Assembly (NCBI GenBank): GCA_018647765.1
Contig: JABGSN010000015.1
Coordinates: forward strand, 30,130-94,129
Origin: Oceanospirillaceae bacterium
GTDB taxonomy: Bacteria; Pseudomonadota; Gammaproteobacteria; Pseudomonadales; Balneatricaceae
DNA: 64,000 bases
Direction: 5' to 3'
In this document: positions 42,516 to 47,725 of the stretch, in pieces
How positions within the stretch are numbered: position 1 is the stretch's first letter
How the letters are laid out: each line of letters opens with the position of its first letter
Notes under the pieces: generated by a model
What the model was told of the DNA's origin: nothing
The model's database searches: none
The model's input: only the letters and a program-made list of their open reading frames with translations
Translations under genes and position numbers: made by a program

Positions 42516-42805
42516 GGGGAGCCTTAATTCATTAATGGATAACGTCTGTAGCGGTGCAAAAATACAAGACAAACTAACCCTCTCGTTTCTAGTGGCACCG
42601 CAGATAAGCCCTATTTTAAATGAGTTGAACACAGATGACACCTAGCATGACCGCTTTTGCACACCACAGGCGCTCTTGACACCAGCGTACCAAGCGATAA
42701 AGTTCGATGCGTTAGCCTGCATGCTTGTAACCCCACTGATGCTTGATCAATTTTTGTAACCTCGGGTCCGTCATCCGCAGCCAATTAAGGCTGACATGAT
42801 ACCTG

Positions 42806-42840
42806 TTGACAAACTACAGCCCTAAGTTAACAATGTTAAC
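42806..42840 (+). promoter_or_regulatory. Predicted promoter (TTGACA-17-AACAAT) overlapped by palindromic candidate MarR operator GTTAACAATGTTAAC
   Basis: TTGACA at 42806-42811, 17-nt spacer, AACAAT at 42829-42834; near-perfect inverted repeat GTTAACaatGTTAAC at 42826-42840, 36 bp upstream of the marR start. Confidence 0.5.
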
Positions 42841-42876
42841 CATTAACACAGCCAACTATTAGCGATACTCAAACTT

Positions 42877-43320
42877 ATGCCCTACGACTTACACCAGCGC
42901 CTCGGCTATAAACTCGCCCTTGCGGCCCAAGTAAATAACCAGACCATGATCACCCTTCTGGCAGACATTGGCCTCACTCGGCAAAGCTGGTGTGTGCTGG
43001 TTGCCGTTGAGGCCCAAGGCATCAGCCAACCCTCGGCCATCGCCGATTACGTCGGTATAAAACGTGCTGCAGTGTCGCGCAGCCTCAAAGACATGTCCCT
43101 CAAAGGTTTGCTGGAACGCCAACATGGCCAGCACAGTCGACAAACCATAAACGTGAGTTTGACTCCGGAAGGTAAGCGACTACTTGCGCTTTCAATGCCC
43201 ATGACAGAGGCCTCTGCAGCACACCTCAACCAACAGCTCAGCGGCCATGAACAAACCCAGTTGATGCGCTTATTAGATAAAATTTTGTCTGCACCCCACG
43301 CACCTGCTGCTCGCATTTAA
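42877..43320 (+). CDS. MarR-family transcriptional regulator
   Basis: wHTH: ISQPSAIADYVGIKRAAVSRSLKDMSLKGLLERQHGQHSRQTINVSLTPEGKRLL. Confidence 0.92.
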   Translation: MPYDLHQRLGYKLALAAQVNNQTMITLLADIGLTRQSWCVLVAVEAQGISQPSAIADYVGIKRAAVSRSLKDMSLKGLLERQHGQHSRQTINVSLTPEGKRLLALSMPMTEASAAHLNQQLSGHEQTQLMRLLDKILSAPHAPAARI

Positions 43321-43356
43321 CCTGTTTGCAAAACGCCTGACCCCGGAACCGACCCC

Positions 43357-46300
43357 ATGACTAAGCTATTCTCCTATCAAAATCGCCCGATGCACATGGG
43401 GCCTTATGCCCTCGAGAAGCTCAAATACACCAAACAACTACCCAACTATACAACCTTGCCCAGTATGGCTCCTTTGGCGTTTATTAAGCCCGCAGCACCC
43501 TTATCTATCGTCAACGCCATGGCTGAGTATCAAGCCATGATGGACGTCATTCGCGATGGTGTCGTCAAAAAGCAAGTCGCAAGCATTCCTGAATCCCCTA
43601 ATGAGCGCAGCCAGCACCTTAAATCCTTTGGCTATTTCTGCGATGCATCAATGATGGGCACCTGCGCCATTCCCGACTCAGCGTGGCTTGATCAGCCTTA
43701 TGCCAACCCAAGTGTCGACCGCCTAAGCCACGCCTTAGCCACCAAACAAATTTCTAGCCTCGCCTCTGGCATCGACGTAGTCATGGCCATGTTACGCGAA
43801 GCGATGCAGGCACCAGTTACAGACTGCCTCCACCATAGTCATGCCTTGGTATTTTTATACGAATACACCCGCGACGCCAAAACCAACGAACCTGGAACCG
43901 ACTGGTTGCAAGATGCACAGGCTCAAAGGGCCGCTCTAAGAGCCTCAGAAAGCGCCTCCGTTTTGTCGGCTTATATTCGCTCCTTGGGTTTTAGCGCACG
44001 AGCACACTCAGCTTCGGCGGCCGAAGTCGACTTACAACACTTAGCCGTAGCCGCAGGCCTTTGCAGTATTGATGGCGACACCATTAACAATCCTTACCTA
44101 GGGTCACGTTTTGGGCTTGCCGTAGTAACCACGGACCTTGAGCTTGCCTCAAACGACTATCTTCTGGCTGGGCAAACGCCTCCCCTAAGTAGCTACTTGC
44201 GGCCGTCCCATGACCGCATCCGCAAACCGGCACAAGCCTACAAACAGCGCCGCTTTGTCGATGGCGCAATGCCCTTTGAAAGCATCAAACGGGCTGATCA
44301 ACCCACCACCTACATCGATCAAGCCAACGTACAGCGCGTGCCCAAACGGGCTGATTTATTTGCCCGTTCATTATTTGGTGACATGGGCCCTAAAGTTCAA
44401 AATGCAGCGCGCAATGGTAATTATGTGCGTAAATCTGCCTCAGCTTTTGCCTTTCGCCAAGCCTTGGGGGCGTTTACTTTGTTACAGGATGGTGGCAAAG
44501 CGCCCACAGTAGACCCGAGCGTTGGCGACGCGCAACGCAACGCCGACAATATAAAGGCCACCGCCTATTGGTTAGGCTGCGATGCCGTAGGCATATCCGA
44601 CTGTCCAGATTGGGTTTATTACAGCCACAATGCGGCTGGCGAAGCCATCGTACCCTACCATAACCAAGCCATTTCCATTGTCATCGACCAAGGCCATGAA
44701 ACCATGGAAGGCGCTAGTGGTGATGATTGGATTTCTTGTGCCCAGTCTATGCGCGCCTATCTGCGCTTTTCCTTGCTCGGCGGTGTGTTGGCACAGCAAA
44801 TTCGCAACCTCGGTTACAGCGCCAACGTGCATACGGTCATGGGCTCAGAGGTGGTTCAACCGCCGCTGACCCTGCTGTCAGGATTGGGGGAAGTCAGCCG
44901 CATCGGCGAAGTCATCCTCAACCCCTTTTTAGGCCCTCGATTAAAGTCCGGCACCGTCACCACTAATATGCCCATGACCCACGACAAACCGATCGATTTT
45001 GGCTTACAAAAATTTTGTGAAAGCTGCAACAAATGCGCCCGCGAGTGCCCTTCCGGTGCCATCACTTCAGGCCCAAAACTGATGTTTAATGGCTATGAAA
45101 TATGGAAGTCCGACAGCCAAAAATGTACCACTTATCGCCTCACTACCGAAGGCGGTGCTATGTGTGGTCGTTGCATGAAAACCTGCCCATGGAATTTAGA
45201 GGGATTGTTTAAGGAATTGCCCTTCCGTTGGGCCGCAAGCCACCTACCACGCGCCGCTAAAACCCTTGCCAAACTTGATGATGTACTGGGTAATGGCAGC
45301 ATAAACCCTGTTAAAAAATGGTGGTGGGATCTGGAAATGGTCAAAGACGGCCCTTATACCATTCCCTTACACAACGTTAATACCCGCGAGTTACAGCCCA
45401 AACTTGCCGTCCAGTTCCGTGACCAGACCTTGGCCGTGTACCCTGCCAATTTGTTACCACCACCTTACCCATTCCCCTACCCTATGGACCGCGAAGCCGC
45501 CATTGAGGCCTACCAAAACATGATCACAGCAAGCGAATACCGGCGCCGTCGGGCCGCCGGCATGCCACTTGAGCATGAGTACATTAACGGCGCCATGTCT
45601 GACGCGCCGATCGTGCAAGTACGACTTAGCAAAGCTGAAGCTATCAGCGAAAAAATAATGCAGTACGAGTTTACCAGCCTCGACGGCGGGCCGTTGCCAG
45701 CAGCCACTGCCGGGGGTCATATTAATGTGCTCATCGCGCCCGAATTTTTGCGCCAATATTCTTTGTCGTCAGATCCTGATGATAACAGCCACTATCAAAT
45801 TGCGGTGCTGCGTGAAGACCAAGGCAGAGGGGGATCGGCCTTGATGCAGCGTATTTTCACCAAGGGACGAAAGGTGTTTGTGTCCAGGCCCACTAACCAC
45901 TTTCCGGTCGCTGAGGGGGCCAGTAAAAGCTATCTTATGGGCGGCGGTATTGGCATCACGCCGATGATCGCCATGGCCCACCGCCTGCATACCCTGGGCG
46001 CCGATTTTGCCCTGCATTACTGTTGTTCTCGGGCTCAAGATGCCGGCTTTGAGGCCGAACTAACGCACATGCCGTGGGCCGACAAGGTACATTTACACTA
46101 CTCTGACCAAGGTACCCGCGCCGAGTTAGCAACACTGCTGGATTACCAAGCGCACGCCCATGTGTATACCTGTGGGCCAGAAAACTTTATGCATGCCGTA
46201 CTAGACACTGCCAAAAGCAATGGCTTTGCCGAAAATCAGCGCCATATGGAATACTTTTCAGCCCCGGACATACCCGCATCCAGTAACCATGACTTTACCT

Positions 46301-46554
46301 TAAAGCTAGCTCAGAGCCAGCAAGAGTTTCACATTCCGGCCACTAAGTCGGCCACTGAGGTACTCATTGAAGCAGGGGTTAACATTGAAGTTAAATGTGC
46401 CGATGGCATTTGCGGGGTGTGCAAATGCGCCATTGTTGCAGGCCAAGTGGAGCACCGTGATTTTGTGTTATCTAATCAACAGCGCCAAACACACATGATT
46501 CTATGCCAGTCGCGTGCGGCACAGCCCGACGGAATCTTAGAGGTAGATTTATAA
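43357..46554 (+). CDS. Self-sufficient reductive dehalogenase-type protein: duplicated RdhA cobalamin-type domains, 2x[4Fe-4S], fused FMN/NAD(P)H reductase and [2Fe-2S] ferredoxin domain
   Basis: 1065 aa; CESCNKCARECPSGAI and CGRCMKTCPWN; RdhA-type VLAQQIRNLGYSANVHTVMGSEVVQPPLTLLSGLGEVSRIGEVILNPFLGPRLKSGTVTT; C-terminal RQYSLSSDP, MGGGIGITPMIAM, CADGICGVCKCAIVAGQVEHRDFVLSNQQ. No Tat signal or TM seen. Architecture matches the catabolic BhbA/NpRdhA-type dehalogenases. Confidence 0.85.
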   Translation: MTKLFSYQNRPMHMGPYALEKLKYTKQLPNYTTLPSMAPLAFIKPAAPLSIVNAMAEYQAMMDVIRDGVVKKQVASIPESPNERSQHLKSFGYFCDASMMGTCAIPDSAWLDQPYANPSVDRLSHALATKQISSLASGIDVVMAMLREAMQAPVTDCLHHSHALVFLYEYTRDAKTNEPGTDWLQDAQAQRAALRASESASVLSAYIRSLGFSARAHSASAAEVDLQHLAVAAGLCSIDGDTINNPYLGSRFGLAVVTTDLELASNDYLLAGQTPPLSSYLRPSHDRIRKPAQAYKQRRFVDGAMPFESIKRADQPTTYIDQANVQRVPKRADLFARSLFGDMGPKVQNAARNGNYVRKSASAFAFRQALGAFTLLQDGGKAPTVDPSVGDAQRNADNIKATAYWLGCDAVGISDCPDWVYYSHNAAGEAIVPYHNQAISIVIDQGHETMEGASGDDWISCAQSMRAYLRFSLLGGVLAQQIRNLGYSANVHTVMGSEVVQPPLTLLSGLGEVSRIGEVILNPFLGPRLKSGTVTTNMPMTHDKPIDFGLQKFCESCNKCARECPSGAITSGPKLMFNGYEIWKSDSQKCTTYRLTTEGGAMCGRCMKTCPWNLEGLFKELPFRWAASHLPRAAKTLAKLDDVLGNGSINPVKKWWWDLEMVKDGPYTIPLHNVNTRELQPKLAVQFRDQTLAVYPANLLPPPYPFPYPMDREAAIEAYQNMITASEYRRRRAAGMPLEHEYINGAMSDAPIVQVRLSKAEAISEKIMQYEFTSLDGGPLPAATAGGHINVLIAPEFLRQYSLSSDPDDNSHYQIAVLREDQGRGGSALMQRIFTKGRKVFVSRPTNHFPVAEGASKSYLMGGGIGITPMIAMAHRLHTLGADFALHYCCSRAQDAGFEAELTHMPWADKVHLHYSDQGTRAELATLLDYQAHAHVYTCGPENFMHAVLDTAKSNGFAENQRHMEYFSAPDIPASSNHDFTLKLAQSQQEFHIPATKSATEVLIEAGVNIEVKCADGICGVCKCAIVAGQVEHRDFVLSNQQRQTHMILCQSRAAQPDGILEVDL

Positions 46555-46561
46555 CTAGGGG

Positions 46562-47569
46562 TTATACCTCAAACTGCTCGGTAGTGACCGTAGCCTGCGC
46601 TTTTTCGCTGTAACGCTGGCCAGTCACTGTATGCTGGTTGATCAAGGCATCAAGTTCGACTGCGATCTGGCGCTCAAGAATCACCTCATTAGCGCCTATA
46701 TTTTCTTGCAAATGGTCCAAGCTCTGAGTGCCCGGTATAGCAATAATATGCTCCGACTGAGCTACCACCCAGGCCAAGGCTAACTGCGCTGGCGTACACC
46801 CCTGACGCTCAGCCAAGCGCACATACTCAGGCAGCAAGGCTAGATTGGCTGCATAGTTAGCGGGGTCAAAGCGCGGCATAGACTGACGCAAATCATCCGC
46901 AGCTAGCAACGACGTGTCATGCAACTTATTGCTCAAAAAAGCGCGCGCAAGAGGGCTGAAGGCAATGAAGGCAGCGCCAATGTCTTGGCTCGCTTGTAAC
47001 ACAGCAAGCTCCGGATTGCGTGTCCACAAGGAATACTCCGATTGAACCGCACTAATAGGGTGCTCTGCATGGGCTTTGCGCAAGTCCTCTGCACCGATTT
47101 CTGACACCCCCACGGCCCCAATTTTACCTTCGCGCTGCAAATCGCTTAAGGCGCCAATACTCTCTTCAATAGGCACCTTAAAGTCGCGCCGGTGCAGGTA
47201 GTAAAGGTCGATATGATCCGTTTGCAAGCGTTGCAAACTGGCTTCACAGGTTTGCCGTAGATGCTCTGGGCGGCCATTAACACTGGGCTGACTATCTGGG
47301 GTTTGACCAATGCCGCACTTACTGGCCAAGAAAAACTCCTGCCGCCGCTTACCAATGTGTTTGCCAATCATGGTTTCATTATGGCCATAACCGTACACCG
47401 CAGCGGTATCGAGCATGGTATAACCCAAGTCCAGTGCTGAATTCAAAAACTTGCCTGCGTCTTTGTCATTGGCTACGTTGCCGTAGCCGTGAGATAAGCT
47501 CATGCAGCCTAAGCTGACAGCTGATACCCGTTTTTGGCCCAGCTTACGCGTGTTATTTAATTCATTCAT
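46562..47569 (-). CDS. Aldo/keto reductase
   Basis: MNELNNTRKLGQKRVSAVSLGCMSLSHGYG, LDTAAVYGYGHNETMIGKHI, ALAWVVAQSEHIIAIPGTQSLDHLQENIGANEV. Confidence 0.93.
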   Translation of the reverse strand: MNELNNTRKLGQKRVSAVSLGCMSLSHGYGNVANDKDAGKFLNSALDLGYTMLDTAAVYGYGHNETMIGKHIGKRRQEFFLASKCGIGQTPDSQPSVNGRPEHLRQTCEASLQRLQTDHIDLYYLHRRDFKVPIEESIGALSDLQREGKIGAVGVSEIGAEDLRKAHAEHPISAVQSEYSLWTRNPELAVLQASQDIGAAFIAFSPLARAFLSNKLHDTSLLAADDLRQSMPRFDPANYAANLALLPEYVRLAERQGCTPAQLALAWVVAQSEHIIAIPGTQSLDHLQENIGANEVILERQIAVELDALINQHTVTGQRYSEKAQATVTTEQFEV

Positions 47570-47725
47570 AGGGCCTTTCGCTCTTGAGCATACATTGAAT
47601 AGAAGTTTACACTGCCTGCAATCTAAACGCACAGCCTTAACCATCCGACGGGCCATGAAAACAACACCTGACATTGCCTCTCGGCTTGCTTATAATTGCC
47701 TATTGTTTACTCATTCGGCCCCACT

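Follow-up and report, generated by a model that had tools for sequence, protein, structure and literature searches.

The self-sufficient reductive dehalogenases are already known to be common in marine Rhodobacterales, and the class has been shown to debrominate phenols under aerobic conditions at the expense of NADPH. JtRdhA of Jhaorihella thermophila debrominates and deiodinates phenols with NADPH, even in air, and was inactive on the chlorinated analogues that were assayed (PMC10463259); the enzyme Ros_A3X954 from Roseobacter sp. MED193 removes bromine from 2,6-dibromophenol (PMC13101508). In NpRdhA of Nitratireductor pacificus the phenol oxygen is bound by K488, R552 and S422 and the proton is donated by Y426, and the substitutions K488Q and R552L cripple activity (PMC7565698). 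In the open literature, subscription papers being outside the scope of the search, we found neither a MarR regulator nor an operator described for this class.

A self-sufficient RdhA and its architecture

The following features were located in the window, by which we mean the whole stretch of 64,000 nucleotides that was analysed:

42668..47639 (no strand): insertion of ~5.0 kb (MarR, RdhA and aldo/keto reductase genes) between rph and gmk, from blastn against G012
42826..42840 (+): predicted MarR operator, palindrome GTTAACAATGTTAAC, 36 nt before the MarR gene, from the conserved motif
42877..43320 (+): MarR-family transcriptional regulator, 147 aa (Pfam MarR_2, 40.2 bits), 36 nt upstream of rdhA
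43357..46554 (+): self-sufficient catabolic reductive dehalogenase (RdhA), 1065 aa, from HMM, sequence, structure and residue conservation
43594..44226 (+): N-terminal repeat of the cobalamin-type domain, aa 80-290 (hhalign against aa 385-560, E 2e-21)
44509..45036 (+): catalytic cobalamin domain, aa 385-560, with S464, M465, Y468 and K530, from NpRdhA alignment and conservation
45016..45195 (+): two [4Fe-4S] clusters and R594, aa 554-613 (Pfam Fer4_16/Fer4_7, conserved Cys)
45613..46551 (+): phthalate-dioxygenase-reductase-like module for flavin, NAD(P)H and [2Fe-2S], aa 753-1065 (2pia, Fer2)
46562..47590 (-): aldo/keto reductase (Pfam Aldo_ket_red, 241.9 bits), convergent with and 7 nt downstream of rdhA

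The rdhA gene is a single ORF that starts with ATG, contains no internal stop and spans exactly 43357-46554 on the forward strand. Its product passed the NCBIfam RDH model TIGR02486 (202.7 bits, cut-off 160.35), and Pfam identified the dicluster ferredoxin part (Fer4_16/Fer4_7) and a C-terminal Fer2 domain; Pfam PF13486 had no match across the whole genome and likewise none in the control genomes. NpRdhA (4ras, 6zxu) matched aa 159-733 with 484.7 bits and, in addition, one N-terminal stretch, and phthalate dioxygenase reductase (2pia) matched aa 753-1062 with 189 bits. The [4Fe-4S] ligands are C554-C557-C560-C564 and C590-C603-C606-C610, and those of the [2Fe-2S] cluster are C1014-C1019-C1022-C1050. 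C554, C557, C560, C564 and C590, tabulated singly, are identical in 89/89 aligned sequences, and all twelve cysteines are invariant or almost so in alignments of 33-35 rows. The N-terminal cobalamin-type repeat (aa 80-290) presumably does not bind B12.

An AlphaFold2 model of the protein, built without cofactors from an alignment that left out three rows from plasmid records, had a mean pLDDT of 79 and a pTM of 0.80, with weak active-site and cofactor loops (pLDDT below 50 at 503-526 and 579-585). A structure search with this model returned NpRdhA first (TM 0.85-0.88 by chain length), followed by 2pia. NpRdhA residues Y426, K488, R552, S422 and M423 align with Y468, K530, R594, S464 and M465, all five of which are identical in 89/89 aligned sequences.

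No transmembrane segment was detected (highest 19-residue Kyte-Doolittle mean 1.36), no twin-Arg motif lies close to the N-terminus, and no small hydrophobic rdhB-like ORF adjoins the gene, going by inspection of the neighbouring ORFs. A respiratory RdhA, for which a Tat signal and an RdhB membrane anchor are expected, was rejected on these grounds. HMM matches, sequence, structure and the invariant catalytic residues support assignment to the cytoplasmic, self-sufficient BhbA/NpRdhA class.

These results bear out most of what an initial annotation had read from this ORF. The 1065-aa frame with two 4Fe-4S motifs is confirmed by the exact ORF and eight conserved cysteines, and the fused phthalate-dioxygenase-reductase-type module with [2Fe-2S] by the 2pia and Fer2 matches together with the motifs RQYSLSSDP, GGGIGITPM and CADGICGVCKC, all of which are present. 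The hydropathy, N-terminus and neighbours agree with its statement that Tat signal, transmembrane helix and rdhB-like gene are missing, and its proposal of an RdhA-like cobalamin domain of the BhbA/NpRdhA class stands on the TIGR02486 and NpRdhA matches and the retained catalytic residues. The HMM search for RdhA and Fer2 domains that it had suggested came out in its favour, as did comparison with NpRdhA for the catalytic Tyr/Lys pair (Y468 and K530 are conserved in the sequence alignment). It did not include the MarR gene, the N-terminal cobalamin-fold repeat or the insertion setting.

Recent insertion at the rph-gmk junction

In the sister species G012 (L121) the flanking DNA aligns by blastn up to window position 42667 and again from 47640, is contiguous there, and is 90-91% identical to the window, such that rph and gmk are adjacent and the site is empty. 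The initial description of a housekeeping neighbourhood was thus misleading, as rdhA sits in a recent insert and its neighbours do not imply a housekeeping function. No transposase ORF was found within 42668-47639. The two genes are also adjacent in most other congeners, while G011 and G014 hold other genes between them, and the junction may be an insertion-prone site. Homologues of the aldo/keto reductase (73-74%) occur elsewhere in five congeners, with none in G012; the enzyme was considered as a functional partner of RdhA, which it does not adjoin at other loci, and this role is unproven. As to the gene content of the two occupied junctions, that of G011 (L127 9375-16015) comprises aromatic-amino-acid hydroxylase, EamA and MMPL genes, and that of G014 (L128 9915-17938) YicC, chromate transporter, PLP decarboxylase, LysR and MMPL genes.

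The host genome (2.49 Mb in 68 contigs) is rated 100% complete. Among seven sequences compared, its SpoT is closest to those of Cellvibrionaceae, Cellvibrionales and Halieaceae MAGs (54-57%), against 39-42% for two alphaproteobacterial sequences, and we therefore take the host to be a gammaproteobacterium; judged from its relatives alone, it is probably a marine bacterium. A genome scan yielded 80 orthologous loci with 58-71% identity to the window RdhA, chiefly from marine Rhodobacterales together with a few gammaproteobacterial MAGs; full-length orthologues range overall from 58 to 72%, and an OM-1 plasmid enzyme is 47.1% identical over the full length. Separately, a genome from the same order but less closely related (G038:C15; L120 8652-10748) encodes an NpRdhA-like RdhA of 37% identity, which matched only query aa 9-743 and apparently lacks the fused reductase part.

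Across 15 genomes of the genus, a second complete rdhA is present only in G014 (72%), and partial copies lie at contig ends in G002 (59%) and G005 (68%). In G012 the C-terminus of RdhA is matched only by two short segments that overlap each other (L119 2924-3053, G012:C46), away from the insertion site, which we read as a decayed copy. In a quick tree that includes partial rows, the window sequence, G014 and MAG L002 form one clade (SH-aLRT 100) inside a six-row group with the Rhodobacteraceae MAGs L001, L003 and L015 (100), so that rdhA is nested among Rhodobacterales. The partial G002 copy (L117, G002:C75) joins a Jannaschia plasmid gene (100) in a different clade from the window, and these separate placements indicate at least two acquisitions of rdhA within one genus. 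In G014, G005 and L002, unlike the window, rdhA ends against an ion-channel gene. The nested position in the tree and the empty site indicate that the marR-rdhA cassette reached the host by recent horizontal transfer.

The MarR gene and its predicted operator

A MarR gene is adjacent to and co-oriented with rdhA in 34/87 sequences examined. Near the MarR start in 32 of these 34 loci we identified a 15-bp palindrome with the consensus RTTRACAnTGTYAAY (counted at a score of at least 11/14), the consensus having been learnt on the same loci on which it was counted, many of them related; a comparable motif occurred in 0/51 loci where no MarR was found. Palindromicity by itself is not significant, being common within an 85-bp stretch: 22/34 loci reach at least 6/7, a level that an average of 33% of the background stretches also attain. 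The operator call consequently rests on column conservation, with the TT, AC and G columns invariant among the 32 loci, and on a symmetric arm change, the window site GTTAACAATGTTAAC differing from the Rhodobacterales form GTTGACAnTGTCAAC in both arms (G->A/C->T). On this sequence evidence the palindrome is predicted to be the MarR operator.

The exact 13-bp core TTAACAATGTTAA occurs once in its own genome. Ten further sites with one mismatch were found, 8 of them within ORFs, and no regulon emerged; the two outside ORFs (C40:75903, upstream of a 474-aa ORF, and C53:1275) do not lead to an aromatic pathway. We infer that MarR, bound to the palindrome before its own gene, would keep marR-rdhA repressed unless a halophenol, or an aromatic compound related to one, is present, and its ligand would point toward the natural substrate of the marine members.

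Predicted activity, alternatives and known systems

We consider it highly probable that the window encodes an oxygen-tolerant, cytoplasmic, self-sufficient dehalogenase for ortho-brominated or iodinated phenolics, laterally acquired as a MarR-rdhA cassette and presumably repressed by MarR. By analogy with the characterised relatives, from which the reaction, electron path, substrate class and oxygen tolerance are all predicted, NAD(P)H would reduce the flavin in the C-terminal module and electrons would pass through the [2Fe-2S] cluster and the two [4Fe-4S] clusters to base-off cobalamin. Cobalt would bind the halogen of the substrate, R594, K530 and S464 would hold the phenol oxygen, and Y468 (with K530) would supply the proton as the halide departs.

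The substrate preference of the window enzyme may differ from that of NpRdhA, because pocket positions are changed (A419 to C461, F290 to L334 and K307 to A351). It is possible, if rather unlikely, that fold and chemistry are as proposed and the natural substrate is another one, such as a bulky bromotyrosine derivative; this reading arises from the residues at the second-halogen site (C461 for A419) and the pocket mouth (A351 for K307). NpRdhA A419M shifted relative activity toward the mono-brominated substrate (PMC7565698), and cysteine is the commonest residue at position 461, beside the second halogen (63/89 aligned sequences), where serine is found in BhbA and valine in the MED193 enzyme. 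Against this, JtRdhA has conservative changes close to the second-bromine site and still accepts many ortho-halophenols (PMC10463259).

Doubtful to a similar degree is a true catabolic enzyme, with mineralisation of the phenol after debromination, like that of bromoxynil in Comamonas 7D-2. The OM-1 enzyme adjoins pobA and extradiol dioxygenase genes, and BhbA is encoded on an IncP plasmid, within a cluster for bromoxynil catabolism that also contains protocatechuate 4,5-dioxygenase genes and the gene of a TTT solute-binding protein. In contrast, no ring-cleavage genes adjoin the window rdhA, and in the 100% complete genome a search set of HmgA, HpaD, intradiol dioxygenase and PobA (LigB-type extradiol enzymes were left out) gave no match for the first three and only fragments far below the cut-off for PobA, with controls matched for each. 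The marine relatives are mostly neighboured by apparent chromosomal backbone genes, and the recurrent Rhodobacterales neighbours were for that reason rejected as a pathway. The host encodes CobS (Pfam) and, from a reading of the neighbouring ORFs by eye, CobU, CobT, CobC and a BtuR-type adenosyltransferase. As these late cobalamin genes are present and HmgA, HpaD, intradiol dioxygenase and any above-cut-off PobA are absent, detoxification or partial dehalogenation seems likelier than mineralisation or growth on the ring. We also noted MetH-type domains as separate ORFs on two contigs (L153, L154, L155; G000:C38, C54), none of which reaches the MetH cut-off, so that they may be parts of a split methionine synthase or other methyltransferases.

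A class III B12 enzyme that does not dehalogenate, whether epoxyqueuosine-reductase-like or of another kind, is very improbable, since the weak QueG match (TIGR00276, 24.8 bits, cut-off 200) is expected from shared ancestry, while the RDH model is passed, the nearest characterised relatives are dehalogenases and the full set of dehalogenase active-site residues is present.

Returning to the proposed MarR-repressed phenol dehalogenase, we tentatively suggest that it belongs to an autonomous, self-regulated marine cassette, comprising a MarR halophenol sensor, the RTTRACAnTGTYAAY operator and a one-protein dehalogenase, that may move between Rhodobacterales and Gammaproteobacteria and detoxify without a ring-degradation pathway. 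If so, part of marine bromophenol turnover would be carried out by transferable one-gene detoxifiers, with no requirement for coupling to growth.

BhbA (Comamonas sp. 7D-2, plasmid pBHB), JtRdhA and Ros_A3X954 have the same architecture and have all been assayed, and the window RdhA therefore joins a characterised class. BhbA is 45.5% identical over aa 3-1065; unlike it, the window gene is beside a MarR gene on a chromosomal contig, and the residue at 461 differs. JtRdhA, compared by its published description, shares the duplicated cobalamin domain, the RdhA-PDOR fusion and the equivalents of Y426, K488 and R552 (PMC10463259); it is an assayed enzyme, whereas the window RdhA has a gammaproteobacterial host and a predicted activity. 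Ros_A3X954 (L035) has 61% identity, and differs in its tree clade, in residue 461 and in that no adjoining MarR gene was found. NpRdhA (4ras, 6zxx) has the same RdhA fold and catalytic residues at about 37% identity, and lacks the fused reductase module. Debromination has been demonstrated biochemically for Rhodobacterales enzymes; the present locus adds an intact copy, of recent insertion, from a gammaproteobacterial genus, together with a regulator, a predicted operator and an empty site that are open to testing. What is new relative to these systems is the predicted MarR-operator switch, the insertion with its empty site and the repeated transfer into one gammaproteobacterial genus.
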